Shown piece after piece: positions 1-21,416 of a stretch of 64,000 nt of DNA. Under the pieces are notes generated by a model. It ran no database searches. It worked only from the letters and a program-made list of their open reading frames with translations, and was not told the DNA's origin. Each line of letters opens with the position of its first letter. Positions within the stretch are counted from its first letter, which is position 1. Position numbers and translations under genes: made by a program. The DNA is from Aureimonas sp. AU22 (GTDB lineage: Bacteria > Pseudomonadota > Alphaproteobacteria > Rhizobiales > Rhizobiaceae). The stretch spans positions 1 to 64,000 of the forward strand of contig NZ_BBWJ01000014.1 in the NCBI RefSeq assembly GCF_001463745.1. Reading direction: 5' to 3'.

Positions 1-1126
1 GGCCGAGCTGAAGGGCCTCGACCCCGCGATCACCGCGGTCGGCCTCTACTACGAGGCCCGCCTCGACCATGCCGAGCGGCTCGGACTGGAACTCGTGCTC
101 GACGCGCTGAAGGACAATCCGGGCAGCGAGGCCCGCAGCTACACCAAGGTCCGCTCGCAGGCCGGCGGCGCGATCGAGATCGAGGACGTCCTCACCGGCG
201 CGCGCGAGTGGGTGAGGGCGGATGTCGTCGTCAACGCCGGCGGCGCCTGGATCGACGGCGTCAACGCCGCGCTCGGCCTCAACACGCGCCACATGGGCGG
301 CACGAAGGGCAGCCATGTCGTGGTGGAGCATCCCGAGCTTCTGGAAGCGCTCGGGCAACGCATGGTGTATTTCGGTTCGGCCGACGGACGGGTGAACCTG
401 CTTTATCCGTTCAAGGGGCGGGTGCTGATCGGCTCCACCGACATTCCGGTAAACCATCCCGACGAAGCGAGAGTGAGCGAGGAGGAGATCGCCTACATGA
501 TCGCGGTCGTCTCGGAGGTCTTCCCGGGGATCGCGATCGCGCGCAAGGACGTCGTCTACGCCTTCTGCGGCGTGCGGCCGCTGCCCAACGCCGATGTGGA
601 CGATCCCGGCGCGATCAGCCGCGACCATTCGGTCGCGGAAGAGCGGCTGCCCGGCAGCGACGTGCCGGTCCTGTCCCTGATCGGCGGCAAGTGGACGACC
701 TATCGCGGCTTCTCCGAGGAGGTCACCGACCGCGTGCTGGCCCGGCTCGGTGGCACGCGCCGCGCTTCGACGGCCGAGCTCGCGATCGGCGGGGGGCAAG
801 GCTTTCCCGCGCAGGAAAGCGAGCGCGTCGCGCTGGCCCGGGAGCTCGCGGCCCTTGCCGGATCGCCCGAACCGGTCGGCGAACGGCTCCTGCGCCGCTA
901 CGGCACCCGCGCCCGCGCGATCGCCCGCGCGATCGGCGCATCGGATCGAAAAACCCTGAACGCTGCGCCCGACCATCACGTCGCCGAGATCGCCTGGATC
1001 GCCGCCAACGAACGGGTCCGGACAGCGGACGATATTTTGCGCCGACGAACGGACCTGGCCCTGTCGGGCCGTGTGACGCCCGCGCTCGCGAGCGAGGTGG
1101 AGGCGATCCGCCTCGCCGCCGCCTGA
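1..1126 (+). CDS. FAD-dependent glycerol-3-phosphate dehydrogenase family protein (GlpD/EryB type), 5' end missing
   Basis: The reading frame is open from the first bases of the window, so the FAD-binding N-terminus lies outside; the visible part is about 374 residues. The family oxidises a polyol phosphate (glycerol 3-phosphate, or erythritol 4-phosphate in EryB) and passes electrons to quinone at the inner membrane face. Seen here are family features such as GGAWID, the IGGKWTTYR block near the end of the oxidase domain, and a C-terminal helical DAO_C domain (LLRRYGTRA onward). It ends 54 bases before a PfkB kinase on the same strand, with GGGAGG before that start, so it probably belongs to the same operon. 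The neighbours (SorC regulator, PfkB kinase) resemble erythritol-type loci, so EryB-like activity is possible. Family assignment is secure; substrate is unknown. Confidence 0.88.
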   Translation, partial: AELKGLDPAITAVGLYYEARLDHAERLGLELVLDALKDNPGSEARSYTKVRSQAGGAIEIEDVLTGAREWVRADVVVNAGGAWIDGVNAALGLNTRHMGGTKGSHVVVEHPELLEALGQRMVYFGSADGRVNLLYPFKGRVLIGSTDIPVNHPDEARVSEEEIAYMIAVVSEVFPGIAIARKDVVYAFCGVRPLPNADVDDPGAISRDHSVAEERLPGSDVPVLSLIGGKWTTYRGFSEEVTDRVLARLGGTRRASTAELAIGGGQGFPAQESERVALARELAALAGSPEPVGERLLRRYGTRARAIARAIGASDRKTLNAAPDHHVAEIAWIAANERVRTADDILRRRTDLALSGRVTPALASEVEAIRLAAA

Positions 1127-1180
1127 AGCCACAGTCCGGCGGATCGGGAAGGGGTCCGCCACCCTTGGGAGGAATGCGCC

Positions 1181-2161
1181 ATGCGCTACGACTACTCGTC
1201 GATCGGCTTCTACACGTTCGATTGCCTCGGCCGGCCCGTCGGCGCCATCCCGCCGGGCGGGGGCACGCAGTTCATCGAACAGATCGACCTCGCCGTCTCC
1301 GGCGCGGCGGGCGCAGCGGTCGTCGCGGCCGCCAAGCACGGCCTCAAGTGCCTTGCGGTCGGCGGCGTCGGCGACGACCTGATGGCCGGCTGGGTGCTGG
1401 ACCGCATGGCGCATTTCGGCGTCGACATCTCGACCATGCAGCGCCTGACCGGCGTCGGCACCTCGACCTCGATCGTTCTGACCCGCGCCGACGGCTCGCG
1501 GCCGGCGCTCCACATGAAGGGCGCGACCGGCGCCTTCGTGATCACGCCGGACATGTGGGACCAGGTGCTGGACGCCACCGTCGTCCACATCGGCGGCGTC
1601 GGGCTGATGGATCGCATGGACGGCGAGCCGAGCGCCACGCTCTTCGCGGAGGCCAAGCGGCGCGGCGCGATCACCACGGTGGACGTCTTCGCCGCCGCCG
1701 AGAAGGATCTCGCCAACGTCGTCGGCCTCCTGCCGCACACGGACTACTTCCTGCCTTCCATTGAGGAGGCGCGCGTCCTGTCGGGGCTGGAGGACGTCGA
1801 GGACGTCTCGCGCTTCTTTCTCGACAAGGGCGTGACCTGCTGCATCCTGACGCTCGGCGAGAACGGGGCTTACTATCGTCACGCCAACGGCGACCGCTTC
1901 CTGATGCCGGCCTTCGCGATCGACATGGTCTGCTCCTGCGGCTGCGGCGACGCGTTCAATGCCGGCATCGCCACCGGTCTCGTGCGTGGCATGGACCCCG
2001 AATCCATGGTGCGCTTCGCCCAGGCGACCTCGGCCCTCAACGCTACCGGTCTCGGCAGCCAGGCGGGCGTCACCTCCTTCGAGGCGACGCTGGCCTTCAC
2101 CAAGCACGCGACCCGCCCATCGGAGATCCGTATCGACGGCGTCAGCCGGACCGCGGCCTGA
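1181..2161 (+). CDS. PfkB-family carbohydrate kinase
   Basis: A 326-residue ribokinase-fold kinase expected to phosphorylate a sugar, polyol or related small molecule with ATP in the cytoplasm. The N-terminal GG-rich substrate region and the C-terminal GDAFNAG anion-hole and catalytic-Asp block (residues about 254-260) are visible. The usual DTTGAGD motif is altered to CSCGCGD: the catalytic Asp is kept, but three cysteines replace conserved residues, which is unusual. The start is supported by TTGGGAGGA a few bases upstream. It lies between the GlpD-type dehydrogenase and a SorC regulator, so it likely acts in the same polyol pathway. A specific substrate cannot be assigned from sequence. 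Confidence 0.88.
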   Translation: MRYDYSSIGFYTFDCLGRPVGAIPPGGGTQFIEQIDLAVSGAAGAAVVAAAKHGLKCLAVGGVGDDLMAGWVLDRMAHFGVDISTMQRLTGVGTSTSIVLTRADGSRPALHMKGATGAFVITPDMWDQVLDATVVHIGGVGLMDRMDGEPSATLFAEAKRRGAITTVDVFAAAEKDLANVVGLLPHTDYFLPSIEEARVLSGLEDVEDVSRFFLDKGVTCCILTLGENGAYYRHANGDRFLMPAFAIDMVCSCGCGDAFNAGIATGLVRGMDPESMVRFAQATSALNATGLGSQAGVTSFEATLAFTKHATRPSEIRIDGVSRTAA

Positions 2162-2216
2162 GAGCCAGGGGATGACCCCGATCGAAAGCCCCCTGCCTGC
2201 GATCGGAGGCTGATCG

Positions 2217-3254
2217 ATGGGCTGGCGCGCACGCGTCGGCGCGCCGGGGCTGTCCCTGCACGCCGGCGAGGGGCTAAACGCAAGGCAGACCCCTCCCTCC
2301 GCCGAAAGACAGGCCGTGTCCTCCATCGACAGCGACGACATCAAGGCGCGCGCCGCCTGGCTCTACTACATGGAAGGGCTGACGCAGGACCAGGTGGCCA
2401 AGATCCTGGGGCTCACCCGCACGCGCGTCCTGCGCATGCTGGCGGCGGCGCGCGAGGACGGCACGGTGCAGATCCGCGTCACCTCGCCGATCGCGCGTTG
2501 CGCGAAGCTCGAGCGCGAGGTGCGCGCGCGCTACGACATGGAGCGCGTCGTCGTGGTGCCGGACCCGCAGGACGAGGCGCAACTGCCCGCCATGATCGGA
2601 GCGGCGCTCGGCCAGCTGCTGCCCGATCTCCTCGCCGACGGCATGACGATCGGCCTCGGCTGGGGGCGCACGCTCTCCTCCTCGCTTCCCTTCGTGGAGC
2701 CGATGGTTCATGCGCGTTCGACCACGATCTCGATGCTGGGCGGTCTGACGCACGTCACCCTGTCCAACCCGTCGGAATTCGCCTGGCGCTTCGCCGATCG
2801 GATCGGCGGCGACTGCTACATGCTGGCCTGTCCGGTCTTTGCGCCGGACGGCGCGACGCGCGACGCGCTGCTCGCCCATCGCGGCATCGCCGAAGTCTTC
2901 CGCCGCACCGACAGGCTGGACCTCGCCATCCTCTCCGTCGGCGACTTCACGCGCGATTCGATCTTTGTCCACTACGGGCTTCTGGAGCGCGCCGACCTCG
3001 ACAGCCTGGAGCGGGCGGGGGCGGTGGGTGACATCCTCTGCCGCTTCATCGACGCGGAAGGGCGCGTTCTCGACCACTCCGTCAACGACCGGGTGCTGGC
3101 CGTCGATCCGCGCCGGCTGGTGGATGCGCGGCGAACGGTGCTGGCGAGCGGCGGCTGGTCGAAATTCCCCGCGATCCGCGCCGCGATGACACTGCTCTCG
3201 CCGGAAATCCTCGTGACCGACGAGCGCACGGCCGAACGCCTCCTGGGCGGCTGA
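2217..3254 (+). CDS. SorC/DeoR-family sugar-binding transcriptional regulator
   Basis: 345 residues. A helix-turn-helix (GLTQDQVAKILGLTRTRVLR, about residues 57-76) is followed by a long SorC-type effector domain with the typical TIGLGWGRTL phosphosugar-loop block. The ATG has GGAGG seven bases upstream, which supports a 33-residue extension before the usual family start; a GTG further in would give a shorter protein. Members sense phosphorylated sugars or polyols and control the adjacent operon; EryD of erythritol catabolism is a relative. A perfect inverted repeat lies 29 bases beyond its stop codon, before the next gene, and is its most likely operator. A second SorC regulator sits 11 kb downstream next to the PTS genes. 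Confidence 0.9.
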   Translation: MGWRARVGAPGLSLHAGEGLNARQTPPSAERQAVSSIDSDDIKARAAWLYYMEGLTQDQVAKILGLTRTRVLRMLAAAREDGTVQIRVTSPIARCAKLEREVRARYDMERVVVVPDPQDEAQLPAMIGAALGQLLPDLLADGMTIGLGWGRTLSSSLPFVEPMVHARSTTISMLGGLTHVTLSNPSEFAWRFADRIGGDCYMLACPVFAPDGATRDALLAHRGIAEVFRRTDRLDLAILSVGDFTRDSIFVHYGLLERADLDSLERAGAVGDILCRFIDAEGRVLDHSVNDRVLAVDPRRLVDARRTVLASGGWSKFPAIRAAMTLLSPEILVTDERTAERLLGG

Positions 3255-3282
3255 AAAAGCGCAGCGGACCGATTATGAACTC

Positions 3283-3302
3283 TTGTCTTCAAGAGAAGAC
3301 AA
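3283..3302. promoter_or_regulatory. Perfect 8-bp inverted repeat, likely SorC operator
   Basis: TTGTCTTC-AAGA-GAAGACAA lies in the gap between the SorC regulator and the DRL-like gene. It is placed to control the DRL/E1/E2/HAD genes. The PTS operon at 14150-14168 has TTGACTTC-ACC-GAAGTCAA, which differs only at one symmetric position and in spacer length. The sequence is seen directly; the binding protein is inferred from neighbourhood. Confidence 0.6.
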
Positions 3303-3333
3303 ATGTATCACCTTTCGTATGGGAGGAAACTCG

Positions 3334-4653
3334 ATGACGATTCTTCAGGTTGGCCTCGCGGCCGAGCTCCAGGCCTATGCCAACAAGAACGGCCCGGTGA
3401 CCGTGGGCCTCGCCGGTTCCGGCCAGATGGGCACTGACATGGTGGTGCAGCTCACCCTGATGCCGGGCGTGCGCCTCGGGGCGCTGTCGGAGTTGAACGT
3501 CGCGGGCGCCGAGGCCGCGCTGCGCATGGCCGGCACCGAGTTCATGCATGCGTCCGGCTTCAACGACATCGACCGCGCCATCGAGGGCGGCAAGGTCGCG
3601 CTGACGCAGGATTACAAGGCGCTATGCGCCTCCGGCCGCATCGACGTCATCATCGACGCCACGGGCAACCCCAACGTCGGCACGCTGATCGCGCTGGAAG
3701 CCTTCCGGAACGGCAAGCACGTCGTGATGCTGAACGTCGAGGCCGACATAACGATCGGCCGTTTCCTGCGCGAGGAGGCGGCCAAGGCCGGCGTCGTCTA
3801 TACCGGCGCGGCGGGCGACGAACCGGCGGCCACGATCGAGATCATCGGCTTCGCACAGTCGCTCGGCTTCGACATCGTGTGCGCCGGCAAGGGCAAGAAC
3901 AACCCGTTGAAGTTCGATGCGACGCCGGACGCCTACGAGGAGGAGGCCCGCCAGCGTAACATGAACGCACGCATGCTGGTCGAGTTCGTGGACGGCTCCA
4001 AGACGATGATCGAGATGGTCGCCGTCGCCAACGCCACCGGCCTCGTTCCGGACGTTCCGGGCATGCACGGGCCGGCCGCGACGCGCGACGAACTCGCCTC
4101 CGTCCTCTGCACGAAGGAAGACGGCGGCGTGCTGTCGGGCACCGGCAAGGTCGACTACTCCATCGGCAAGGGCGTCGCGCCCGGCGTGTTCTGCATCGTC
4201 AAGCCGAGGCACGACCGCGTGCTGGAGCGCATGAGCGATCTCAAGATGGGCCCCGGCCCGAACTACACGATCTTCCGCCCCTATCACCTGACCTCGCTCG
4301 AAGTGCCGCTGTCGGCGGTGCGCGCGGTGGTGAAGGGCGCTCCGGACCTCGTTCCCGCCGACCGCCCGGTGGCCGAGTGCGTGACGCTCGCCAAGCGCGA
4401 CCTGAACCCCGGCGATACGCTCGGCAAGATCGGCGAGTACGACTATCGCGGCTTCGCGATGACCTGGGAGGACGCCCGCGACGAGGGGGCCCTGCCGCTG
4501 GGCCTTGCCGAACAGGCGCGGGTCATCAAGCCGATCAAGGCCGGCGAGAAGCTGACCTATGCCAATTGCGAGCCGGACGACAGCCTGGTGATCACTCAGA
4601 TCCGCCGTCGCCTCGACCAGGCCGACGGGCGCTTCGCCACCGCCGCCGAGTGA
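3334..4653 (+). CDS. SAF-domain NAD(P)-dependent oxidoreductase, DXR-like (DRL)/homoserine-dehydrogenase-like
   Basis: 439 residues from the ATG that follows GGGAGGAA; an upstream in-frame GTG would run through the operator and is less likely. The N-terminal Rossmann motif AGSGQMG is at about residues 27-33, [10 protein letters not shown] follows, a central catalytic domain contains [15 protein letters not shown], and the last third is a SAF domain. From memory this order and these blocks match the Brucella abortus DRL enzyme, which converts 1-deoxy-D-xylulose 5-phosphate to 2-C-methyl-D-erythritol 4-phosphate (MEP) and is distinct from canonical DXR. Many homologues are uncharacterised or annotated as homoserine dehydrogenase. 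It is the first gene behind the SorC palindrome, upstream of an acetoin-type dehydrogenase. A catabolic role, MEP-type substrate to deoxyxylulose phosphate, fits the context but is inference. Confidence 0.75.
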
Positions 4654-4673
4654 CCGGATCAGGAGACGCATCC

Positions 4674-5723
4674 ATGTCCGCCATCCCCAGGGTTTCGGAG
4701 GTCGCCGATGCCGCGCCGCAGGCCGGCGGGCGCGAGGGCGACAACCGCCCCTTCGCCTTCCGCCACTTCGCACCGGCGATCCTGAAGGACGCGCTGCGCC
4801 AGATGCATCTGATCCGCCGTTTCGAGGAAGGGGCGGAGGAGAGCTACACGCGCGGGCTGATCCACGGCACGATGCACCTGTCGATCGGCCAGGAAGCCTC
4901 GGCGGTCGGCACCTGCCTCGCCCTCACCGACACCGACCAGATCACCTCGACCCATCGCGGCCACGGCCACTGCATCGCCAAGGGCGCCGAGGTGGGTCGG
5001 ATGTTCGCCGAGTTCTTCGGCAAGGAGACGGGCTACTGCCGCGGCCGCGGCGGCTCGATGCACATCGCAGACGTCACCAAGGGCAATCTCGGCGCCAACG
5101 GCATCGTCGGGGGCGGCCTGCCGATCGCGGTCGGCGCGGCGCTGTCCATGAAGATGCAGAAGCGGCCCGACGTCGTCGTGTCGTTCTTCGGCGACGGCGC
5201 CAACAACGAGGGTGCCTTCCACGAGGCGCTCAACATGGCCTCGATCTGGAAGCTGCCGGTCGTGTTCGTGTGCGAGAACAACAAGTACGGCATGTCGGTC
5301 TCGACCGAACGCTCCACGGCAGTGAAGAACATCGCCGAGCGCGCGGTGGCCTATTCGATGCCTGGCGTCACGGTGGACGGCAACTCGCTGTCCGACGTCT
5401 CGGAAGCCTCCGTCGCCGCCATCGAGCGCGCGCGCCGGGGCGAGGGCCCGACGCTGATCGAGTGCAAGACCTATCGCCACCGCGGCCACTCCAAGAGCGA
5501 CCGCAACCGCTACCGCACGAAGGAGGAGATCGACGACTGGATCTCCAAGGATCCGATCGGCCGTTTCGAGGCCGAGATGATCCAGTACGGGATCGTGTCG
5601 GCTGACGACGTGGAGGAGATCCGCGCCGGCGTCGAGCGCGAGATCGCGGACGGCATCGAGTTCGCCAAGAACTCCCCGTCGCCCGACCCGTCCGACGCGA
5701 CGCGTTTCGTCTACACGGCCTGA
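4674..5723 (+). CDS. Thiamine-diphosphate-dependent dehydrogenase E1 alpha subunit (acetoin dehydrogenase type)
   Basis: 349 residues, starting at an ATG behind AGGAGA, 20 bases after the DRL-like gene. The thiamine diphosphate motif runs from [10 protein letters not shown] (residues 173-182) to ENN (201-203), and the RHRGHSKSD phosphorylation-loop region is present. Together with the next gene it forms an alpha2beta2 E1 that decarboxylates a 2-oxo acid or cleaves an alpha-hydroxy ketone and passes the acyl group to lipoyl-E2. The E2 encoded two genes on is AcoC-like, which favours acetoin-type carbon-carbon cleavage over pyruvate dehydrogenase activity. A hydroxyketone such as 1-deoxyxylulose phosphate, made by the preceding gene, would be a fitting substrate. 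No E3 gene is visible. Confidence 0.88.
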
Positions 5724-5753
5724 AGCCGCACAAGACCCCAAGGAACCACAGGG

Positions 5754-6767
5754 ATGAGCGAACTTGCCGACGCGGCTGGCGGCCGCGAGCTTTCCTATGC
5801 CCAGGCGATCCAGGAAGCGATCGCCATCGCTATGGAGGAGAACCCGCGCGTCTTCATCATGGGTGAGGACATCGGCGTCTACGGTGGCGCCTTCCAGGTG
5901 ACGGGCGATCTCGTCCATCGCTTCGGCGCGGACCGCGTGATCGACACGCCGATCGCCGAACTGGGAGGCGCGGGCGTCGCGGTCGGCGCGGCGCTCACCG
6001 GCATGAAGCCGATCTACGAGTTCCAGTTCTCGGACTTCGCGACGCTGGCGATGGAGCAGATCGTCAACCAGGCGGCCAAGCTTCGCTTCATGCTCGGCGG
6101 CAACGTCTCGGTGCCGCTCGTCATGCGCTTTCCCGCCGGGTCGGGTACGGGCGCGGCGGCGCAGCACTCGCAGAGCCTCGAGGCCTGGCTCGGCCACGTG
6201 CCCGGCCTGAAGGTGCTCCAGCCCTCGACGCCGCACGACGCCAAGGGCATGCTGCTCGCCGCGATCGACGATCCCGATCCGGTGATGATCTTCGAGCACA
6301 AGATCCTCTACAAGTCGAAGGGCATCGTGCCGGAAGGCCGCTACACCGTGCCGATCGGCAAGGCGGCCGTAGTGCGCGAAGGGCGGGATCTCACGATCGT
6401 CGCCTCGGCCATCATGGTCCACAAGTCGCTTGCCGCCGCCGAGGAACTGGCGAAGGACGGCATCGACGTCGAGGTCGTGGACCTCAGAACCGTTCGCCCG
6501 ATGGACCGTGAGACCATCGTCGCCAGCGTGATGAAGACGGGCCGCCTCGTCTGCGTCTACGAGGGCGTGAAGACGCTGGGCGTCGGCGCCGAGATCTCGG
6601 CGATGATCGCGGAAAGCGAGGCCTTCGACTATCTCGACGCGCCGATCGTCCGCCTGGGGGGCGCCGAGGCGCCGATCCCCTACAATCCCGAACTCGAGAA
6701 GGCGGTGGTGCCGCAGGTTCCGGACATCGTCCGCGCCGTGCGCGCGCTCCACAAGAGGGAGCGCTGA
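5754..6767 (+). CDS. Thiamine-diphosphate-dependent dehydrogenase E1 beta subunit (acetoin dehydrogenase type)
   Basis: 337 residues, the partner of the preceding alpha subunit. It shows the transketolase pyrimidine-binding domain with [12 protein letters not shown] near residue 40, [18 protein letters not shown], and the C-terminal transketolase domain ([12 protein letters not shown]) that binds E2. The length matches AcoB/PdhB-type beta subunits. The start is an ATG after AAGGAACCACAGGG. Family assignment is firm; acetoin-like specificity rests on the downstream E2 type. Confidence 0.9.
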
Positions 6768-6772
6768 TCGCC

Positions 6773-8152
6773 ATGCCGACCGAAGTGATCCTGCCCAAGG
6801 TCGACATGGACATGGCGACCGGCCAGATCTCGCGCTGGTTCTACAGGGAAGGCGACGCCATCAAGAAGGGCGAACCGCTCTTCGAGATCGAGACCGACAA
6901 GGCGGCCATGGAGGTGGACGCGCCCGCGAGCGGCACGCTCCGCAACGTGACAGGCGCCGAGGGCGTCGACATCGCGGTCGGCGCGCCGGTCGCCTGGATA
7001 TACGCCGAGGGCGAAGCGTTCGACGCCGCGACTGCAGGCGCCGGTGCCCCGGTCGTGGTCGGTCCCGACCCGGACGTCGAGACGGACTCCAAGCTTCCTT
7101 CCGGCGACAGCGTCCCGGCACGCGCAAGCGTCGATGCCGCCGACAGTGCCGAGACGGGAAGCGAGCGCCGGGGCGTGCGCGCGACCCCGCTGGCCCGGCG
7201 CATCGCCCGCGAGCGCGGCATCGACCTCGCCACCATCGCCGGCAGCGGCCCGCTCGGCCGTATCGGGCGCGACGACGTGGAGAAGGCGGCGACGGCGCGG
7301 GCGACGCCCGTCCCGCTGACGCCGCCTCCGCTGCCCGCGGCGCGCGAACCCGAGGCTCGGCCCGCACCGCGTGCGCCCGCCGAAAGGGCCGACGTCGCAA
7401 CACCGCTGGCCGTCGTCCGGCTGCGCGAAGGGGAGGGCGTGCCCGTCGTCTTGATCCACGGCTTCGGATCGGAATCGGCCAGTTGGCGTCCGCTTCTGGC
7501 CGAAATGGTGGAGGGCGGCCCGGTGCTTGGGCTCGATCTCGCCGGCCACGGTGCATCGCTCGACCGCGTGGCCGACGGCTTCGACGCTTTGGTTTCCGGC
7601 GTCGAGGAGACGCTGATCGCGCTGGGGCTCGCCACCTGCCACCTCGTCGGACATTCGCTCGGCGGCGCGGTGGCGACCGCGGTGGCGAGCGGCACCGCGA
7701 GCGACGTGCGCTCGCTCCTGTTGATCTCGCCGGCCGGCTTTGGACCGGACATCGACACGGGTTTCACCGAAGGGTTCGCCCGCGCGACGGAGGAGGCGCC
7801 GATCCGGACCTGGCTCTGCCATCTTGTGGTGGACCCCGCCGTGCTGACGGACAGCTTCGTGCGGGCGGCCGCCCGCGCGCGTGCCGACGGCCGTCATTCG
7901 CAGGCGCAGACGCGCCTCGGTGCGGCGCTCTTCTCCAACGGAACGCAGCACGTCTCGGTTCGCGATCTCGTTTCCGGCCTGTCCATGCCGGTGAAGATCG
8001 TCGCGGGGGCGGACGATCGCGTCGTGCCGGCACGCCATTTCACCGGTCTGCCGGGGCGGATCGCCTTGCATGTGTTCCCGAGGACGGGACATATGCCGCA
8101 GATCGAACAGAAGGGCGACGTCGCCCGCCTTCTCCGCGAACTGACGCGCTAG
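6773..8152 (+). CDS. AcoC-type E2: lipoyl domain plus subunit-binding domain fused to an alpha/beta hydrolase
   Basis: 459 residues. Residues 1-80 form a biotinyl/lipoyl domain with the lipoylation lysine in ETDKA (K43). A Pro/Ala linker leads to a peripheral-subunit-binding domain at about 134-171 (RATPLARRIARERGI ... GPLGRIGRDDVE). A second linker leads to an alpha/beta hydrolase from about 212, with nucleophile elbow GHSLGG (Ser295) and a C-terminal RTGHMP histidine. A normal E2 acyltransferase catalytic core is absent. This layout is that of acetoin dehydrogenase E2, AcoC, and is the best evidence that the E1 pair cleaves a hydroxyketone to an acyl-CoA plus an aldehyde. It starts 5 bases after E1 beta. 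E3 must come from elsewhere in the genome. Confidence 0.88.
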   Translation: MPTEVILPKVDMDMATGQISRWFYREGDAIKKGEPLFEIETDKAAMEVDAPASGTLRNVTGAEGVDIAVGAPVAWIYAEGEAFDAATAGAGAPVVVGPDPDVETDSKLPSGDSVPARASVDAADSAETGSERRGVRATPLARRIARERGIDLATIAGSGPLGRIGRDDVEKAATARATPVPLTPPPLPAAREPEARPAPRAPAERADVATPLAVVRLREGEGVPVVLIHGFGSESASWRPLLAEMVEGGPVLGLDLAGHGASLDRVADGFDALVSGVEETLIALGLATCHLVGHSLGGAVATAVASGTASDVRSLLLISPAGFGPDIDTGFTEGFARATEEAPIRTWLCHLVVDPAVLTDSFVRAAARARADGRHSQAQTRLGAALFSNGTQHVSVRDLVSGLSMPVKIVAGADDRVVPARHFTGLPGRIALHVFPRTGHMPQIEQKGDVARLLRELTR

Positions 8153-8195
8153 CCGTTTTCGGTCCGCGCGGGGGAGGAACCTTCAGAGGGCGACC

Positions 8196-8855
8196 ATGGC
8201 CGAGATCGACAGCATCATCTTCGACTGCGACGGGGTTCTCGTCGACAGCGAGGTTCTCGCCCGGCGCGCGATGCAGTCCGTCTACCGCCAGGCCGGCATC
8301 GAGGTGACGGCCGACATGGTCAACGCCATGGTCGGCATGAAGATGGCCGACATCCTCCAGGGGATCGAGGCGCGCACCGGGCGCTCTCTCGCCGAAGAAT
8401 ACCATCCCCGTTTCTGGACCGAGACCAAGGCGCTGTTCACCGCCGAACTCGCACCCACGCCCGGGATCGTCGAGTTCCTCGAGCGTTCGTCGCTTCCGCG
8501 CTGCGTCGCCTCGTCGTCCGACCACGAGCGCATCCGACACAGCCTGAAGGTCACCGGCCTCGACCGGTTCTTCTCAGACGACGCGATCTTCTCCTCGCAC
8601 GACGTGAAGCACGGCAAGCCGGCGCCCGATCTCGTGCTCCACGCCGCCGCTCGCATGGGCTTCGAACCGTCCCGCAGCCTGGTGATCGAGGATTCGCGCT
8701 TCGGCGTGATGGGCGCCAAAGCCGCCGGCATGGTGGCCTACGGCTTCCTCGGCGGCGCGCATCTCCTCGCCAACACCGGCGATGCGCTGCGCGAGGCCGG
8801 CGCGGACTTCGTCGCCCGCACCTATGACGAGATCACGGCCGAGATAGCTGGCTGA
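8196..8855 (+). CDS. HAD-superfamily phosphatase (beta-phosphoglucomutase/phosphoglycolate-phosphatase-like)
   Basis: 219 residues of HAD subfamily I. Motif I is FDCDGVLVDSE (nucleophile Asp in DCD), motif II is CVASSSD, the lysine motif is HGKPAPDL, and motif IV is VIEDSRFGV. A helical cap lies between motifs I and II. Such enzymes dephosphorylate or isomerise small sugar phosphates. It ends the operon, 43 bases after E2, and could clear a phosphorylated dead-end product or recycle a pathway intermediate. The substrate cannot be read from the sequence. Confidence 0.85.
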   Translation: MAEIDSIIFDCDGVLVDSEVLARRAMQSVYRQAGIEVTADMVNAMVGMKMADILQGIEARTGRSLAEEYHPRFWTETKALFTAELAPTPGIVEFLERSSLPRCVASSSDHERIRHSLKVTGLDRFFSDDAIFSSHDVKHGKPAPDLVLHAAARMGFEPSRSLVIEDSRFGVMGAKAAGMVAYGFLGGAHLLANTGDALREAGADFVARTYDEITAEIAG

Positions 8856-9211: not shown

Positions 9212-11158
9212 TTAGATCTCCGTCACGCACTTCTTGGCACGCGGGATCGAGGCCGGGCTCATCGAGAGCTCGCTGACGCCGTTCTCGACGAAGAACGGAA
9301 TGAGGTCGGGACGAGCGGCCGCCTCGCCGCAGACGCCGATCCAGATGCCGGCCTCGCGCGCGGCCCGGGCGGCCATGCGGATCGCGGCGAGCACCGCCGG
9401 ATGCTCCGTGCGGTTGAGCTTGGCGACGCGCGGGTTCAGCCGGTCGGCCGCCATGACGTATTGCGTGAGGTCGTTGGTACCGACGGAGAAGAAGTCCACT
9501 TCCCCGGCGATCTCGTCCGCCACGAAGACGGCCGCCGGCGTCTCGATCATCACCCCGAGCTCGAACGCGCCGTGCGCGTGGCCAGCAGCGTCGAGCTCCG
9601 CCCGGCATTCGTCGATGAGGGCACGCACGGCGCGGACCTCGCCGACATCGGCGATCATCGGCAGGAGGATCTTGACGTTGCCGACGACGCTCGCGCGCAG
9701 CAGCGCCCGGAGCTGCGGCTTGAAGACGTCCGGCCGCTCCAGGCACATGCGCACGCCGCGCCAGCCGAGGAACGGGTTGTCCTCGTGTTCGAAGTCGATG
9801 CCGGCCACCGGCTTGTCGCCGCCGATATCGAGCGTGCGGATCACCACGGGGTGGGGCGCGAAGGCCTTCGCGAGCGCGGTGTAGGTCTCGGACTGCTCGT
9901 CCTCGCCGGGCAGGGCGCGGCGCTCCATGAACAGGAACTCGGTGCGGAAGAGGCCGACGCCCATCGCGCCCGCTTGTCGCGCGGTCTCGATCTCGGCGAG
10001 CGAGCCGAGATTGGCGGCAATCTCGATGCGCCGTCCGTCTCGCGTCGTCGGCTCGACCGCGCGGTAGGCATCGAGCGCCGTGCGCTGTTCCGCCTCGCGC
10101 GCGATGGCCCCGCGCAGGCGGGCGGCGGTCTCCGAATCGGGGTCGAGCACGACTTCGCCGCTGGCACCGTCGAGGCCGATCGTCCGCGCGGCCTTCATGC
10201 GCGCCGGATCCGCCGGGAAGCCGAGGACGGCGGGAATGCCGTGGGCACGCGCCATGATGGCGACATGGCTCGTCGCCGCGCCCTTGCGGCAGACGATGCC
10301 GCCGATGTCGGCGAGCGTCGCCTTGGCGAGGTCCAGCGCGGCGATCTCGTCGGCGATGATCACCGAGCCCTTCGGCATGTCGGCGAGCGTCGCATCCACC
10401 ATGTCGAGGAGGGCGAGGATGATCGCGCGCGTCACGGAGCGGATGTCCTCGGCACGGGCGCGCAGGTAAGGGTCGGCCAGCGCTTCGAAGCTTGCCGCGA
10501 TCGTCCGGCCCGCCTCCTGTACAGCGCTCGGGGCGTCGCGCCCCGCGCGGATCCCGGTTTCGACGGCGCCGATGAACTCGGCGTCCTCGGCGACCTCCAC
10601 CAGCGCATCGATGATGGCCGCGTCGTCGCGCTTGAGGCTCGGGCGGGCCTTCGCTTCGCGAAACGAATGGACGGTCGAGGCCAGCGCTTGCGTGTAGCGC
10701 AGGCGTTCGGCTTCCATCTCGCCCAAGGCCACGGTTCGCGGCCGGATGTCGAGGGCGGCCGGAAAGAATGCGAAGGCCGGACCGATCGCGGTGCCCTCGC
10801 TCGCCGCGACGCCGCGCTCACCGGCGTGGCCCATGTCCGGCGCGGCGGTCGGCGCTTTCGCGGCCGTCGGCGCGGCGGGGGCGGCGAGATCGATATCGCC
10901 GGCGTCCGGCGTCTGGAGGAAGGTCGCGAGGGCTGACACCGCGTCCGCCGCATCGGTGCCCTCGGCCCGCAGGGTCGCCTCGTCATTCTCCTTCACGCCG
11001 AGCAGCATCAGCTTGACGGCGCTCTTGGCGCTGGCGCCCCGGCCGTTGCAGCGGATCTCGACCTCGCTCGCAAAGCTCTTGGCGAGCTTCACGAACTGGG
11101 TGGCCGGGCGTGCATGAAGACCGTCGTGCACGCGCACGACGACGGAGCGCTCGATCAT
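9212..11158 (-). CDS. HPr-Enzyme I fusion phosphotransferase of the PTS
   Basis: 648 residues from the ATG at the HPr domain; the frame is open further upstream but that part lacks family sequence and overlaps srlB. Residues 1-90 are HPr with the phospho-accepting histidine in HDGLHARPAT (His15). After an Ala/Pro linker comes Enzyme I: the phosphohistidine swivel motif GAATSHVAIMARAHG (His298), the GLFRTEFLFM PEP-binding block and the C-terminal GVCGEAA. It takes phosphate from PEP and passes it to the IIA protein encoded next door. It is the last gene of a glucitol-type PTS operon, so the system carries its own energy-coupling proteins instead of relying on the regulatory PTS-Ntr proteins usual in these bacteria. 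Confidence 0.92.
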   Translation of the reverse strand: MIERSVVVRVHDGLHARPATQFVKLAKSFASEVEIRCNGRGASAKSAVKLMLLGVKENDEATLRAEGTDAADAVSALATFLQTPDAGDIDLAAPAAPTAAKAPTAAPDMGHAGERGVAASEGTAIGPAFAFFPAALDIRPRTVALGEMEAERLRYTQALASTVHSFREAKARPSLKRDDAAIIDALVEVAEDAEFIGAVETGIRAGRDAPSAVQEAGRTIAASFEALADPYLRARAEDIRSVTRAIILALLDMVDATLADMPKGSVIIADEIAALDLAKATLADIGGIVCRKGAATSHVAIMARAHGIPAVLGFPADPARMKAARTIGLDGASGEVVLDPDSETAARLRGAIAREAEQRTALDAYRAVEPTTRDGRRIEIAANLGSLAEIETARQAGAMGVGLFRTEFLFMERRALPGEDEQSETYTALAKAFAPHPVVIRTLDIGGDKPVAGIDFEHEDNPFLGWRGVRMCLERPDVFKPQLRALLRASVVGNVKILLPMIADVGEVRAVRALIDECRAELDAAGHAHGAFELGVMIETPAAVFVADEIAGEVDFFSVGTNDLTQYVMAADRLNPRVAKLNRTEHPAVLAAIRMAARAAREAGIWIGVCGEAAARPDLIPFFVENGVSELSMSPASIPRAKKCVTEI

Positions 11159-11193
11159 GGCTCGGGTTCCAGGTTCGAAGAAGGGTCTACGGT

Positions 11194-11574
11194 TCAGTCG
11201 CCGATGACGATGACGGCGCCGGGCACGAGGGCCGCCGCGAGTGCCGCTCCGTCCACGGGGCTGGCCGCCAGCTCGCCGGGGCGCTCGGGCGCCGCCGCGC
11301 CGTTGAAGTTGACGACGACATGGCCGATGTCGCGCACCTTGGCCCAGGCGAGTTCGCCGATGCCGGTGAGCCTCGCCTCGACCGGGCCGACGCGGATGGC
11401 GGCGCCCGGGGCGGGGGCGCTCGCCGCAGGCTCGCCATCGACCGCGTGCATCACCGAGACTTCCGCGAGTTCGGGCGGGGCGCCGTCGGCGAAGAGGATC
11501 AGGACGCCGCCCTCGAGGAGGTCGGGAACGTCGGGCCCGACGGCGGTGACGGTGGTGCGCAGAAACTGGGTCAT
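11194..11574 (-). CDS. srlB: PTS glucitol/sorbitol-family IIA component
   Basis: 126 residues, the usual length for SrlB/GutB. The phospho-accepting histidine lies in SVMHAVDGE at position 43, the same position as in E. coli SrlB as I recall it. A second conserved IGHVVVNFNG block is near residue 83. It receives phosphate from the downstream HPr-EI fusion and hands it to IIB. It sits between srlE and the HPr-EI gene in a five-gene operon. Family is clear; the transported polyol may not be sorbitol. Confidence 0.9.
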   Translation of the reverse strand: MTQFLRTTVTAVGPDVPDLLEGGVLILFADGAPPELAEVSVMHAVDGEPAASAPAPGAAIRVGPVEARLTGIGELAWAKVRDIGHVVVNFNGAAAPERPGELAASPVDGAALAAALVPGAVIVIGD

Positions 11575-11657
11575 GGCAGTCCTTGGGCAGTCCTCGGGCG
11601 GGCATCGCCCGCGGGTAGGGGAGTTGCCGGGCGGCTCCGACCGCCCGGCCGAGGGGA

Positions 11658-12701
11658 TCAGAGCAGGAAGCTCGCGCCCCAGGCGATCAGCACCGCGATC
11701 GGTCCGGTGATCTGCCGGCTAATGAGGACGGCGGGCACGCCGATCTCGATCGTCTTCGGCTTGGCTTCACCGAGCGCGAGGCCGACCGGCACGAAGTCGC
11801 AGCCGACCTGCGCGTTGTAGGCAAAGAGCGCCGGCAGGGCCATCGCCGGGGCGATGGTGCCGTTGGCGATCTGCGGGCCGATGATGGCGACGCCGATCAC
11901 CTGTGCGATCACCGCGCCGGGTCCGAGAATGGGCGACAGGAAGGGCAGGCCGCAGATCGCCGACAGGACGACGAGGCCGAGGATGTTGTTGGCTAGCGGC
12001 CCGAGCGGCGCGGCGAGAAGGTCGCCGATGCCGGTGTAGAGGATGATGCCGATCAGCATGGTCACGAAGGCCATGAACGGCAGGACGTTGCGCACCACCA
12101 TGTCGATGGTACGCCGGCCGGCATTGAAGAAGATGCCGACGGCCCGGCCCATGACGCGGCCGACGCTCGTGATCGCGCCGATCAGTCCGCCCTGGTTCGA
12201 GGCGGGCATCGCGCCGCCGAGGGCCGCGGTCGCCTCCGCTGGCGAAGAGAACGAACGCGGCGCGGCCGTCGGAGAACCCATCGCGGCGGGCGAGGCGGAC
12301 TGCTGTCCGGCCGGCGCGTCCGATCCGTCGGCGGGCACCATGTCGGCCGGCGTCACGCCGGAGACGTAGATGTCTTCCGTGATGAACTGTGCGAGCGGGC
12401 CGCTCTGGCCGACCGGCATGATGTTGATGGTCGGAATGCGCTTGCGGGCATAGACGCCGCAGCGGGCCGTGCCGCCGCAGTCGATCACGACCGCCGCCAT
12501 TTCCGACTCCAGCGGCGGGTTGCGGAACCCGTCCACCACGGTCGCGCCGGTCAGCTCGGCGAGGCGCTGGGCGACGGGCGGGATGCCGCCGCCGGTCACC
12601 GCCACGATCTTGTCGCGCTCCGGCGTCGGCTGGATCACCAGCGGGCCGCCCCAGCCGCCCTTGCCCTGCGAGACGCGAATGGCTCTGAAAACCTTGCTCA
12701 T
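11658..12701 (-). CDS. srlE: PTS glucitol/sorbitol-family IIBC component
   Basis: 347 residues. The N-terminal IIB domain holds the phospho-accepting cysteine in [11 protein letters not shown] (Cys75), followed by [11 protein letters not shown] and EDIYVSGV. An Ala/Ser-rich linker at about 115-165 leads to hydrophobic C-terminal helices (second IIC part) that pack with SrlA in the inner membrane. It transfers phosphate to the incoming polyol. The gene lies 23 bases after srlA. Residue order matches GutE/SrlE of enterobacteria. Confidence 0.92.
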
Positions 12702-12724
12702 CGATCGATCCTCTTCCCCGGGCC

Positions 12725-13576
12725 TTAGAGGGTCACGCCTTCGCGCTGGGCGAGGAAGCGGGTGATGCGTTCGGTGACGATGCCGCGCAGGAGGATCACC
12801 ACCACGCCGACGATGAAGTAGTAGATCGCGAGATTGATATGGTATCCGGCCGGGATGACGCCCCGGTTCTCGAGTTCGAGAAGCGCCACCAGCACGCCGC
12901 CCCAGACGAAGTATTCGCCCGCATTGGCATGGGGGAACAGGCCGAGGATCGGATGGCAGAAGGACACGGCCGAATCGTAGAAGGCCGGCTTGTGCTTCTC
13001 TTCCAGGAAGGTGCCGAACGTGTATGCCATCGGGTTCGTCAGGAAGAACATCGAGAGGACGGGGAGGACCGTGTAGCGCGTCAGCGCGATGCGGCCGGCC
13101 TTCTGGGCGAGGCCGTGGACGCGCTCCTCGCCGATCATGCCGGTGAGCGCGTAGAAGGCGGTCATCAGCACCACCAGTGTCGGGATGATGCCGGTGACGA
13201 AGCCGAGGAACACCTCGCCGCCCTTCTGGAAGACGCCGATGAAGTGTCGGCCGATGGTCGCCAGCCAGCCGAGCTGCTCCTCCTGGTTGCCGGTGGCGGA
13301 GAGTTGCTGAACGCGCCGGGCGTATTCGTCGGCCGAGATCGGTCCGCCCGCGGTGGCCGGAGCGGTCGCCGCCGCGGTGCCGGCTGCGCCGGGATCGGTC
13401 GCCTGCGCCAGGAGCGTCGCGCCGTGATGGGCGGCGTCCGTCGCGGCCCCCGCATGGTGGGCGGCGAGATCCCCGAGCGGCACGGCGAGCGCCGGATCGC
13501 TCAGGGCCTGGACATGCGCGGCGCCGTGCGCGGCGAGATCCGCCGTCGCTTGCGCCAGTATCATCATCGTCAGCAT
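12725..13576 (-). CDS. srlA: PTS glucitol/sorbitol-family IIC component with a long His/Ala-rich N-terminal extension
   Basis: 283 residues, against about 187 for E. coli SrlA. The conserved IIC domain starts near residue 105 ([18 protein letters not shown]) and contains [38 protein letters not shown] and several membrane helices. The first 100 residues are Ala/His-rich (AAHHAG, DAAHHG) and low in complexity, with no counterpart in the E. coli protein. A shorter protein starting just before the IIC domain lacks an obvious start codon. It forms the membrane channel for the polyol with SrlE. The extension could bind metal or be a poorly conserved cytoplasmic tail; this is not known. Confidence 0.9.
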
Positions 13577-13663
13577 GTTCGGCCCTCCCAGCCGTGCCCC
13601 CAGAGGGCGTTGCGACGTTGCACGTTCGAAAGTCGTCGGGCGGCCCGGGCGGGCGGCGCCGAA

Positions 13664-14095
13664 TCAGGCGGTGACCGGCTCACCGCCGCCGAGGTCGGCG
13701 GCTTGTGCCTGCCGCGAGCGCGCCTGCGCCACCTGATCCAGAGCGCTGAGGATGGCGGCCGCCAGTGGTTCGCGCCGGCGCCCTTCGGCGTCGTTTCGCA
13801 GGTCGGACGCGAGGCGGCCTTCCAGTTCGTGCAGGCGCCGCGCCTTGGCGAAGACCGTGCGTCCCTGGAGGCTCGTCGCCCGGCGCACGCGTCCATCGGG
13901 TGCGACGACGATCATCGCGATCGCCCCGCCCCGCAGTGCGCCGCCACCCTTGCCGACGCCCATCCAGCCGTCCGTCGAGGAACTGCCGACGTCACGAAAC
14001 GCCGCGCGATAGCGGCCGACCTGAATCACCGTTCCGACGCACTGAAGCGCCCATGCCAGCGCGAGAAGCGCCAGCGCAGCCTGCCAACCCGTCAT
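13664..14095 (-). CDS. gutM: GutM-family glucitol operon activator-like protein
   Basis: 143 residues with one N-terminal transmembrane helix ([20 protein letters not shown]) and a GRYRAAF/GVGKGGG region typical of GutM, which accompanies glucitol PTS genes. It is the first gene of the PTS operon, just behind the SorC-type palindrome. In enterobacteria GutM is described as an activator of the operon, but the membrane helix makes direct DNA binding doubtful; an accessory PTS role is also possible. The C-terminus is Gln/Ala-rich. Confidence 0.75.
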
Positions 14096-14143
14096 GCCAA
14101 TCCTCCCACGAGACCCGGGCCTCCCTGCCTCGTAACGTCAGAT

Positions 14144-14175
14144 GAACATTTGACTTCACCGAAGTCAATGTGTTC
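14144..14175. promoter_or_regulatory. SorC-type palindrome before the PTS operon
   Basis: The core is TTGACTTC-ACC-GAAGTCAA at 14150-14168, flanked by GAACA on the left and TGTTC on the right (one base off symmetry). It lies between the second SorC gene and gutM, where the promoter of the PTS genes must be. It closely resembles the palindrome before the DRL-like gene. Binding by either SorC regulator is inferred. Confidence 0.6.
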
Positions 14176-14203
14176 TGCCACCCCGTAGCGGCGTCGCGAA
14201 CGA

Positions 14204-15175
14204 TCAGTCGAGGAGGCGAGCGGCCGTCGTTTCGTCCGTCACCAGGATCGTGGGCCTCAGGTATGCCAAGGCGGCGCGGATGATGTCGATCTTCTCGGGT
14301 CCACCCGATGCCAGGATGCGCTCCGGAGCCCGGCGGATCGCCTCCATGTCGGCCGACACGATGCGTTCGTTGATCGGATGATCCACCAAAGCGCCGTCCC
14401 GGTCCAGGAAATGAAACAGGATATCGCCCACGGCCCCCGCCTTTTCGAGGGAACGCCGTTCCGCTTCCGCGATGTAGCCGGTGCGATAGGTGGTCGAGTT
14501 GCGTTCGATGCCGCCGACGCTGAGGACCACGACGTCGAGTTTCTCCGCCATGTCCAGGGTGGAGCGCAGTCCGCAGCGGTGCAGCAGCGCGGTCTTCGTC
14601 TCCAGGCTGTCCACGATCGCCGGGGCACTGAGGAGGAAGGCGTCGCCGTTGAAGATCTGGGCGAAGCGCCAGACGAATTCCTCCGGATTGAAGCGATGGG
14701 CTTCGGAGATGCCGCCGAGCAGCGAGACGACCCGCATGTCCTCCAGCGCCCGAGGCTCGATAAAGGGAAGGGACTCCAAGAGCGTGCGTCCCCATCCGAG
14801 GCCCACCGTCATGCCGCTGTCGACAGCGTCCGACAAGGCACCCCCGATCGCCGCGCTGATCACCGGCGTCGGGTCTTCGCCCTTGCCGGGCGCGGGGGCG
14901 ACGATTGCGCTCTTCAGTCCGTAACGGGCTTCGAGCGCCCGCTCCGCCGCCGTCAGGTCCGCCAAGGCGCCCGACACGGAGATGCGCACTTCGCCGCGGG
15001 CACGCGCTTCCGCCAGAAGCCGCACGACGCTGACGCGGCCGATGTCGAGCTTGGCGGCGATGTCGCTCTGCGTCATCTCCTCGACGTAGTACATCCACGC
15101 GGCGCGCACGCGCATCCGGTCCGCGCGGGTTCCGGATGCAGGCGCCTCGGCGCCGTTTCGCGACCGACCCTTCAC
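14204..15175 (-). CDS. SorC/DeoR-family sugar-binding transcriptional regulator (second copy)
   Basis: 323 residues. Helix-turn-helix EEMTQSDIAAKLDIGRVSVV lies near residues 32-51, and the effector domain has the SorC block TVGLGWGRTLLESLPFIEP. It is a paralogue of the regulator at 2217-3254, with the same length class and matching blocks. Located directly upstream of the PTS operon on the same strand, with a palindrome in between, it likely controls PTS expression in response to a sugar or polyol phosphate. Its own start lies 130 bases from a divergent gene of unknown function. Confidence 0.9.
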   Translation of the reverse strand: MKGRSRNGAEAPASGTRADRMRVRAAWMYYVEEMTQSDIAAKLDIGRVSVVRLLAEARARGEVRISVSGALADLTAAERALEARYGLKSAIVAPAPGKGEDPTPVISAAIGGALSDAVDSGMTVGLGWGRTLLESLPFIEPRALEDMRVVSLLGGISEAHRFNPEEFVWRFAQIFNGDAFLLSAPAIVDSLETKTALLHRCGLRSTLDMAEKLDVVVLSVGGIERNSTTYRTGYIAEAERRSLEKAGAVGDILFHFLDRDGALVDHPINERIVSADMEAIRRAPERILASGGPEKIDIIRAALAYLRPTILVTDETTAARLLD

Positions 15176-16708: not shown

Positions 16709-17407
16709 TCAGATCATGTCGGCCACCCGGTCCCAGGCGCGGGACAGGTGGCGGGTGAGGATCTCGGCGAGGCCTTCGCCGTCGCGCCGTTCGAGGGCTG
16801 CGATCATCTCCTCGTGCTCGGCGACCGCCGCCGCCCACTTCTCCGGCCCCTCGTGGGCTATGAAGCGCACGCGCTTCAGCCGCATCTGCAGGCCGGCGTG
16901 GACATGGGCCAGCGCCGCATTGCCGGTCAGTTCGACGATGCGGCTGTGGATCTCCTGGTTGAGCTTGTAGTAGGCGAGCCGATCACCCGCACGATAGCGC
17001 TCCAGCATCGCGTCGTGGGCGCGGCGCACGCCGGCGATGCCGGCGTCGGTCCCCGCTTCGCAGGCCAGGCGACCCGCCAGGTGTTCCAATTCCCGGATCA
17101 CGACGAGCATGTCGTGGACATCCTTGCGGTCGAAGCGCCGAACCACAGCACCGCGGCTGGGGACGAGTTCGACCAGTCCTTCGCTCGCCAGGTACTTGAT
17201 CGCCTCGCGCAGCGGCGTGCGCGACACGCCGAGCTGCTCCCCGAGCTGGCCTTCGTGAAGCCGCGTGCCCGGCTCCAACGAGCCCTCGATGATCATGTCC
17301 CGGAGCCTGCCGACGATCGTGTCGTGCAACGAAGTGCGCGAGATGCGGCCCATGTCCGAACCGGGCGCCGGGTCGATCGCGCGCGGTGCCGACAACGTAT
17401 CGCTCAT
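16709..17407 (-). CDS. GntR-family transcriptional regulator with FCD (FadR-type) domain
   Basis: 232 residues from the ATG preceded by GGGAGGGA; the frame continues 23 codons upstream without a ribosome site. The winged-helix GntR domain covers about residues 25-90 (IIEGSLEPGTRLHEGQLGEQ, LGVSRTPLREAIKYLASEGL) and the all-helical FCD ligand domain follows, with the metal/effector residues HEGP and RHLSRAW near the end. It is divergent from the PdxA/DhaKL/Tct operon and is its likely repressor; an inverted repeat in the shared gap fits an FCD-type operator. Confidence 0.9.
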   Translation of the reverse strand: MSDTLSAPRAIDPAPGSDMGRISRTSLHDTIVGRLRDMIIEGSLEPGTRLHEGQLGEQLGVSRTPLREAIKYLASEGLVELVPSRGAVVRRFDRKDVHDMLVVIRELEHLAGRLACEAGTDAGIAGVRRAHDAMLERYRAGDRLAYYKLNQEIHSRIVELTGNAALAHVHAGLQMRLKRVRFIAHEGPEKWAAAVAEHEEMIAALERRDGEGLAEILTRHLSRAWDRVADMI

Positions 17408-17512
17408 CGATCCCTCCCAAGGCGTCAGAAGCACTGTGTGTCCGCAGCGGCCGAGGCTGAAGACGCAGTCTTTCAAACATCACAAACGTCGAATGCGGTC
17501 AAACGGGAATGC

Positions 17513-17527
17513 TGTATGCAGAATACA
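17513..17527. promoter_or_regulatory. GntR/FCD-type operator TGTAT-N5-ATACA
   Basis: TGTATGCAGAATACA is a 5-bp inverted repeat with a 5-base spacer, in the 193-base gap between the GntR gene and the divergent pdxA-like gene. FCD-type GntR proteins often bind related TGTAT/ATACA dyads. Control of the catabolic operon and of the regulator itself is inferred from position. Confidence 0.5.
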
Positions 17528-17600
17528 AAATGAAAAAGGCTTGATGCGTGAATGCGGATCGGCTAGCGGTGTGTCCAAGCGTCATTCGGGAGGACATGAA

Positions 17601-18638: not shown

Positions 18639-18673
18639 GCACGAAGTTCCGCATGCGTCAGGGAGGAATGCGC

Positions 18674-21336: not shown

Positions 21337-21416
21337 CCGGCCCGTCCACCCGTCCGGTCGCGTTGGCGGCCGGATTGTTCCTTTCCTTCAATGATCCGTC
21401 TGGGAGGCATGATCCA

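Follow-up and report, generated by a model that had tools for sequence, protein, structure and literature searches.

A locus at the start of contig NZ_BBWJ01000014.1 of Aureimonas sp. AU22 carries the genes for what is probably a degradation pathway for a branched C5 polyol. The stretch analyzed, referred to here as the window, comprises the first 64,000 nucleotides of the contig (C14), and base 1 of the window is base 1 of the contig. It begins with an operon built around a homologue of the Brucella reductoisomerase DRL (DXR type II), on which a second operon, encoding a phosphotransferase system (PTS), converges. A catabolic role for this locus is well supported by comparative sequence analysis, and we assign a probability of about 0.6 to the reading that it catabolizes a branched C5 polyol, with 2-C-methyl-D-erythritol the likeliest candidate, by way of 2-C-methylerythritol 4-phosphate (MEP) and 1-deoxyxylulose 5-phosphate (DXP) to acetyl-coenzyme A (acetyl-CoA) and glyceraldehyde 3-phosphate. 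In the proposed pathway, the glucitol-type PTS would import the polyol as MEP; the DRL homologue would oxidize and rearrange MEP to DXP with NAD+, reversing the second step of isoprenoid synthesis; and a dedicated E1/E2 complex would split DXP at the C2-C3 bond, with the acetyl group passed to CoA, glyceraldehyde 3-phosphate released, and E3 presumably drawn from elsewhere. The SorC proteins would sense a phosphorylated intermediate. We infer 2-C-methylerythritol as the exact substrate, and likewise the direction of the DRL reaction, the E1 reaction and the regulator ligand. The anatomy of the locus, its synteny, the co-inheritance of its genes, the split between two DRL paralogues, and the active-site and cofactor signatures could be demonstrated by comparing sequences. 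A first-pass annotation of positions 1 to 8855 had already suggested an oxidative, catabolic DRL; synteny, co-inheritance, the paralogue division and the cofactor signature now strengthen that suggestion, but it had overrated two genes, for GlpD and PfkB, and had missed the PTS.

All eight genes of the first operon (1-8855) were present on the plus strand with intergenic gaps of 5-79 bp, in the common direction seen at first pass, and Pfam and NCBIfam models confirmed their families. The DRL homologue (3334..4653; PF21135 DRL_cat, 224 bits) is followed by E1alpha of the predicted DXP dehydrogenase complex (4674..5723; E1_dh, 306 bits), E1beta (5754..6767; Transket_pyr and Transketolase_C), both members of a DRL-linked E1 group described below, and an AcoC-type E2 with lipoyl, E3-binding and alpha/beta hydrolase domains (6773..8152; NF011457, 369.8 bits, cut-off 307). 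Upstream of DRL are genes for a GlpD/EryB-like FAD dehydrogenase (2..1126; DAO and DAO_C domains), whose 5' end is cut by the contig end, a PfkB-family sugar kinase (1181..2161; PF00294, 123 bits), and a SorC/DeoR-type sugar-binding regulator (2217..3254; PF04198, 185 bits). The last gene encodes a HAD-family phosphatase (8196..8855; PF13419), a recurrent accessory present in several other clusters.

The convergent operon (9212-15175, minus strand) is of the glucitol/sorbitol PTS type. It encodes an HPr-EI fusion (9212..11158; PTS_I_fam, 466 bits; HPr, 77 bits; start placed from the HPr domain), EIIA (11194..11574), EIIB (11658..12701; NF049924, 441 bits, cut-off 400), EIIC (12725..13576), a GutM-like protein (13664..14095) and a second SorC regulator (14204..15175; PF04198, 192 bits). 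The glucitol-type set is complete with GutM: EIIB was assigned by the model, and the other three by synteny and identity. EIIA was recognized by its position and by 52-86% identity to EIIA of other clusters, EIIC by 50-95% identity to other EIICs, and GutM by synteny and 31-78% identity; the equivalents are annotated as EIIA, EIIC and GutM in Terrarubrum, and GutM is so annotated in Pseudoroseomonas as well. Because this PTS is present, the pathway closes without GlpD and PfkB. The plasmid clusters of Terrarubrum and Pseudoroseomonas, otherwise complete, have no gene annotated as either one, and a role for the two as essential steps was rejected on this ground; the weight that the first pass had placed on them was too high. 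A GlpD-like gene occurs in some clusters (Aureimonas, Paracoccus, Limimaricola, Agrobacterium), and the window PfkB is 57-59% identical to the kinase of a cluster version with an ATP-binding cassette (ABC) transporter. At the window locus GlpD, PfkB and the HAD phosphatase are accessory; in clusters that lack the PTS, an ABC transporter and the PfkB kinase would yield the same phosphate ester.

Phylogenetic analysis placed the window DRL where the first pass had expected it. In a quick tree of 97 rows, with SH-aLRT supports only and long branches flagged, the protein fell inside the DXR-II clade, separated from DLO-like rows by a branch with support of 100 (89 DXR-II rows versus 8 DLO-like rows, the DLO label having been assigned here from 34-39% identity and lost residues, not from a published tree). 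The Brucella DRL was nested in a clade of 20 rows (support 98), 13 of them linked to E1. The match of the window protein to Brucella DRL (PDB 3UPL/3UPY) scored 476 bits and spanned residues 3-429 of 439. Active-site residues named in the accessible text of a 2013 survey of DXR-II (PMC3847144) are Lys191, Lys193, Thr229, Arg320 and His250, and all five are kept in the window DRL as K186, K188, T224, R315 and H245. They were identical to those of Brucella in 88/88 DXR-II-clade rows, a count that leaves out the single AcoC-only row, whereas Thr229 and His250 (Brucella numbers) occurred in 0/8 DLO-like rows.

The window DRL differs from the Brucella enzyme where the second Rossmann strand (beta2) ends, a place read from sequence and not from structure, and has Glu53 there. 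An acidic residue at this point is the usual sign of a preference for NAD. Asp or Glu was found there in 33/33 E1-linked rows (Priestia was labelled E1-linked by hand here and in the tree, its E1 lying about 8 kb from DRL and outside the distance rule), 4/4 FGGY-linked rows, 3/3 PTS-linked rows without E1 and 8/8 DLO-like rows, but in just 16/48 rows without partner genes. The signature reads Ala-Arg-Arg in Brucella and Thr-Ser-Arg in a second, solo DRL encoded on contig C28 of the same Aureimonas genome, and both are NADP-like. Among DRLs that are the sole reductoisomerase of their genome (21 of 23 such genomes, with G394 and G397 left out), 5/21 were acidic; in three of these Arg or Thr-Arg follows, and the other two are from Ancylobacter. 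In clade, length, active-site residues and the 476-bit match the window DRL thus resembles the Brucella abortus enzyme, which is NADP-like and serves isoprenoid synthesis; it differs in its acidic, NAD-like signature and in its place in a PTS/E1 operon. We predict that it is an NAD+-dependent oxidoreductase-isomerase converting MEP to DXP.

The window DRL could instead be a biosynthetic substitute for DXR that stands in a polyol or acetoin operon by chance. Canonical dxr was not found in the genome by a PF13288 search (9/14 control genomes were positive), and the MEP-pathway gene ispG is present; moreover, no other reductoisomerase was found in four of the genomes with such a cluster. The absence of dxr, which the first pass would have taken to make this gene the biosynthetic one, was borne out, but it does not imply that role. 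The window DRL is not the sole candidate for forming MEP, as the genome has two DRL_cat genes, the window copy and the C28 copy, which are 67% identical. The C28 gene is solo, with none of the partner genes searched for within the surrounding 20 kb; a gene for transketolase is located some 3 kb from it. Named relatives carrying a DRL 93-97% identical to the window DRL were all Aureimonas. In a search of 61 relatives, the C28-type DRL was found in 21/21 Aureimonas genomes, our own included (64-71% identity to the window DRL), while the window type was found in 11/21 (89-100% identity) and canonical DXR-I in 0/21. E1alpha (88% identity or more) and EIIB (90% or more) occurred in the same 11 genomes as the window-type DRL, each 11/11 versus 0/10, with no discordance.

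In the family group of 37 genomes, 30/30 without DXR-I have a DRL of 48% identity or more, and the seven with DXR-I give no DRL match at E 1e-40; in a class sample of 385 genomes, a DRL of at least 44% identity occurred in just four, our own among them. The solo DRL is present in every Aureimonas genome searched and the window type is accessory, and therefore the core enzyme that replaces DXR is the solo DRL, the window DRL being an extra copy. The best reading is that the solo DRL would supply MEP for isoprenoids, and the proposal that dxr loss makes the window gene biosynthetic was rejected. Among the 30 genomes with an E1-linked cluster, canonical DXR accompanied the cluster DRL in 14, a coexistence that had been suggested for examination at first pass, and 12 others had a second DRL. 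On this distribution the cluster copy is dispensable for isoprenoid synthesis. Additional functional DXR-II paralogues are described for M. loti and O. anthropi in the accessible text of PMC3847144. Together with the NAD-like signature and the joint occurrence with PTS and E1, this makes a biosynthetic role for the window DRL very unlikely.

The association of DRL with E1 and E2 recurs in other genomes, as had been anticipated, and was not due to chance. Loci were surveyed in the best 80 of 566 confirmed genome loci, and the proportions are those of this selection, not of the whole family. In 30 loci E1alpha and E1beta shared the strand of DRL and were no more than 6-7 kb away from it; AcoC alone was present in one, an FGGY kinase adjoined DRL in 17, and 32 had none of these. 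The contrast between E1 linkage in 30/80 loci and in 0/8 DLO-like loci reached no better than p = 0.047, and the eight were hand-picked from 98 matches below 40% identity. The 30 E1-linked loci carried a PTS in 11 cases, a Sinorhizobium-like ABC transporter (58% identity or more) in nine, both in none, and neither in ten, some of which are cut by contig ends. PfkB (50% identity or more) was present in 13/30, and E2 was of the AcoC type in 18, of the pyruvate dehydrogenase (PDH) type in 10 and not found in two. PTS, Sinorhizobium-like ABC transporter and PfkB were each found in 0/49 non-E1 loci. SorC lay within 6 kb in 18/30 E1-linked loci and was present in 21/49 non-E1 loci.

Synteny extends across Hyphomicrobiales, Rhodobacterales, Rhodospirillales and Acetobacterales and to one betaproteobacterium. 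The plasmids of Terrarubrum and Pseudoroseomonas encode SorC, EI, EIIA, EIIB, EIIC and GutM, divergent from DRL (annotated there as 'homoserine dehydrogenase'), E1alpha, E1beta and an AcoC-type E2. Rhizobium sp. B230/85 has a PTS version with an E2 of the PDH type; thiC, thiS and other thiamine biosynthesis genes lie near this cluster (L153, 16807-21296). Agrobacterium CFBP7129 has SorC, a solute-binding protein, two permeases, an ATPase, PfkB kinase, DRL, E1alpha, E1beta, E2, E3 and lipoyl synthase, and also a GlpD-like dehydrogenase. The cluster of Sinorhizobium americanum resembles it, and S. fredii NGR234, listed among DXR-II holders in the accessible part of PMC3847144, carries the same set as these ABC-type clusters. 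A looser cluster of about 15 kb in Priestia (Bacillota) contains a glucitol PTS, E1, E2, E3, SorC, DRL and an FGGY kinase. Interchangeable modules for delivering a polyol phosphate combined with a constant DRL-E1 pair are what would be expected if the polyol is phosphorylated, then acted on by DRL, and the DRL product is cleaved by E1.

The order of E1alpha, E1beta and an AcoC-type E2 is that of AcoABC, and the acetoin dehydrogenase complex splits its alpha-hydroxyketone substrate, giving acetyl-CoA and an aldehyde. The complex might therefore be an ordinary acetoin dehydrogenase with DRL as an unrelated neighbor, since its E2 passes the acetoin E2 model NF011457 and its E1alpha shares 44-54% identity with E1 of the acetoin type. 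Quick trees, in which long branches were flagged, pointed elsewhere. The DRL-linked E1alpha and E1beta grouped with Priestia and with a SorC-E1-PTS cluster of Clostridioides (support 89 for alpha and 95 for beta), whereas the acetoin-type proteins formed another group (9 E1alpha, support 95; 7 E1beta, support 99), so that the predicted E1 falls outside the acetoin group, which bears on the first pass's question of an acetoin-specific E1/E2. DRL-linked E1alpha has Thr in 41/41 sequences where 9/9 acetoin types and the PDH of the same genome have Phe; the aligned Phe of human PDH E1alpha is one that we take to line the active site. It also has His in 40/41 where acetoin types and the PDH of the same genome have Pro or Gly, and E1beta carries further group-specific residues. 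Relatives of AcoX and AcoR were found in 0/50 DRL-E1 loci, which include some genomes taken twice, versus 6/9 and 7/9 acetoin loci, and other clusters pair a PDH-type E2 with the same E1 group. By E1 grouping and the absence of AcoX and AcoR from the neighborhoods, the acetoin dehydrogenase assignment was rejected as highly improbable. The partners at the window locus are DRL and a polyol transporter.

A protein 28-33% identical to butanediol dehydrogenase occurred in 14/50 DRL-E1 loci and 4/9 acetoin loci; the Aureimonas member is a zinc alcohol dehydrogenase encoded upstream of the operon, where a divergent ribose-type binding protein and an ABC ATPase are also encoded (L093, 313-4195). The Clostridioides difficile record (L159, 1690-15695) contains SorC, E1alpha, E1beta, E2, E3, a sigma-54 regulator, PTS IIA, IIB and IIC, a class II aldolase and a lipoate ligase. 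Its E1 is nearest the DRL-linked E1, no DRL was annotated in the 26 kb viewed, and ispD and ispF lie directly after the cluster.

The proposed cleavage has a chemical precedent. DXP is an alpha-hydroxy methyl ketone, and its cleavage with thiamine diphosphate gives the hydroxyethyl intermediate of pyruvate, which passes by way of lipoyl-E2 to CoA, together with glyceraldehyde 3-phosphate. The lipoyl synthase gene beside the Agrobacterium cluster was counted in favor of the proposed pathway. E. coli mutants in aceE, encoding PDH E1, have raised DXP levels, and purified PDH making 1-deoxyxylulose is cited in the same source (accessible text of PMC3424233). An E1 fold is therefore capable of joining these fragments, and by analogy the DRL-linked E1 may split DXP, the reverse of the PDH precedent. 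The mutants can also be read the other way, with E1 making DXP from pyruvate and glyceraldehyde 3-phosphate and DRL reducing DXP to MEP, as a biosynthetic front end independent of DXS. Such a route would have no use for dedicated transporters, for SorC regulators or for a lipoyl E2, and with the NAD-like signature and the accessory distribution it is scarcely credible.

Several observations weigh against the pathway from 2-C-methylerythritol, or against parts of it. The equilibrium of the DXR reaction favors MEP, and therefore DXP must be drained; the reaction is listed as reversible in the accessible part of PMC13001223. The cofactor trait changed about five times on the tree, and the four matched pairs on supported branches, with none opposing, were too few to reach significance. 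The AcoC-only locus without E1 (L025) is not acidic at the beta2 end (0/1), and the Ancylobacter DRLs (L021, L023), sole in their genomes and beside a SorC gene, are NAD-like; three other sole DRLs are acidic too. A stop codon lies inside the match in 3/21 solo DRL copies. The cluster genomes in which no other reductoisomerase was found number 4/30 (metagenome-assembled genomes L018, L039 and L083, and draft L088); in L018 the cluster stands beside polyprenyl synthetase and LytB genes, and in that lineage the same DRL copy may serve synthesis. Less similar ABC transporters occur at some non-E1 loci (L043, L045, L055, L058, L065). Mesorhizobium has DRL and an FGGY kinase without E1, and Ligilactobacillus, Listeria and Enterococcus have DRL and a PTS without E1. 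At the Ligilactobacillus locus a transketolase and a fructose-6-phosphate-aldolase (Fsa)-like gene are present, so that DRL likely has another fate or substrate at least in loci of this type; loci of these three genera could possibly convert another branched polyol to a pentulose phosphate. Finally, the window EIIB passes a sorbitol transporter model (NF049924). At the Mesorhizobium loci (L024, 9986-18569, and others) FGGY kinase, SorC, a ribose-type ABC transporter and a short-chain dehydrogenase adjoin DRL.

The EIIB match, the Ligilactobacillus gene set and the E1 pocket residues, unlike those of acetoin and PDH types, raise the possibility of a different polyol, apiitol-like or sorbitol, from which DRL would form xylulose 5-phosphate or fructose 6-phosphate and E1/E2 would form glycolyl-CoA or use another alpha-hydroxyketone. 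The window locus shares EIIA, EIIB, EIIC and GutM with the srl/gut sorbitol PTS operons but differs from them in having DRL, E1/E2, its own EI-HPr and SorC regulators. Sorbitol-6-phosphate dehydrogenase was found neither among the eight genes of 1-8855 nor in the annotation of the core conserved in Terrarubrum and Pseudoroseomonas. PDH-family E1s normally move acetyl groups, and we know of none that forms glycolyl-CoA. The window DRL retains the DXR-II residues checked, and the Brucella DXR-II, which makes MEP (PMC3847144, accessible text), is nested among E1-linked DRLs. A different polyol is thus unlikely, though it is the alternative to be taken most seriously.

Returning to 2-C-methylerythritol as the substrate, plant hemiterpene glycosides derive from the MEP pathway, and the oxidation of isoprene yields 2-methylerythritol, so that plant-associated bacteria could meet the compound; the case for this is circumstantial. 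The locus shares a GlpD/EryB-like gene and the logic of a polyol phosphate with the ery erythritol pathway of Brucella and rhizobia, but the end products of that pathway differ from those proposed here, and no EryA-type FGGY kinase or EryC/TpiA/RpiB-type gene was found among the window genes scanned with Pfam and NCBIfam. Elsewhere in the window, positions 16709-24540 encode a GntR/FCD regulator, a PdxA-like protein, an AP_endonuc_2 isomerase-like protein, a Dak1-Dak2 kinase and a TctC and TctA transporter, a cluster resembling a pathway for a C4 sugar acid or a tetrulose. A sugar cluster at 49145-57094 includes two Gfo/Idh/MocA oxidoreductases, a ribose-type binding protein and a ROK protein.

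The first pass knew of no described pathway of this kind, and our literature search, with subscription papers and preprints outside its scope, likewise found no published account of such a pathway or of operons of this kind that include DXR-II. The 2013 survey (PMC3847144) has 'operon' a single time in its main text, within the title of a reference, and never 'PTS', 'sorbitol' or 'catabol'. We judge the route to be a new catabolic pathway assembled from known families. Whether DXR-II was at its root a catabolic, NAD+-linked MEP dehydrogenase-isomerase of methylerythritol-degrading operons, partnered by a DXP dehydrogenase complex that would be a new enzyme, and was recruited more than once after loss of dxr to give the biosynthetic Brucella-type and Aureimonas enzymes, with a switch from NAD to NADP, is an evenly balanced proposition. 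DXR-II activity is confirmed, in the accessible text of the same survey, for Finegoldia magna, in which neither isoprenoid pathway was found, and for Chloroflexus, in which the mevalonate pathway alone would be used. If true, a catabolic root explains active DXR-II in organisms without the MEP pathway, and a catabolic role could explain the scattered distribution of DXR type II among bacteria, an answer that is testable. It also makes labelling a DRL as 'homoserine dehydrogenase' or as an isoprenoid enzyme unsafe outside solo contexts. The pathway, if true, would provide both a way of degrading methylerythritol and a new acyl-CoA-forming reaction, from DXP to acetyl-CoA and glyceraldehyde 3-phosphate. 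It would also mean that an essential biosynthetic enzyme was recruited from catabolism, and would provide tools for engineering the supply of DXP.

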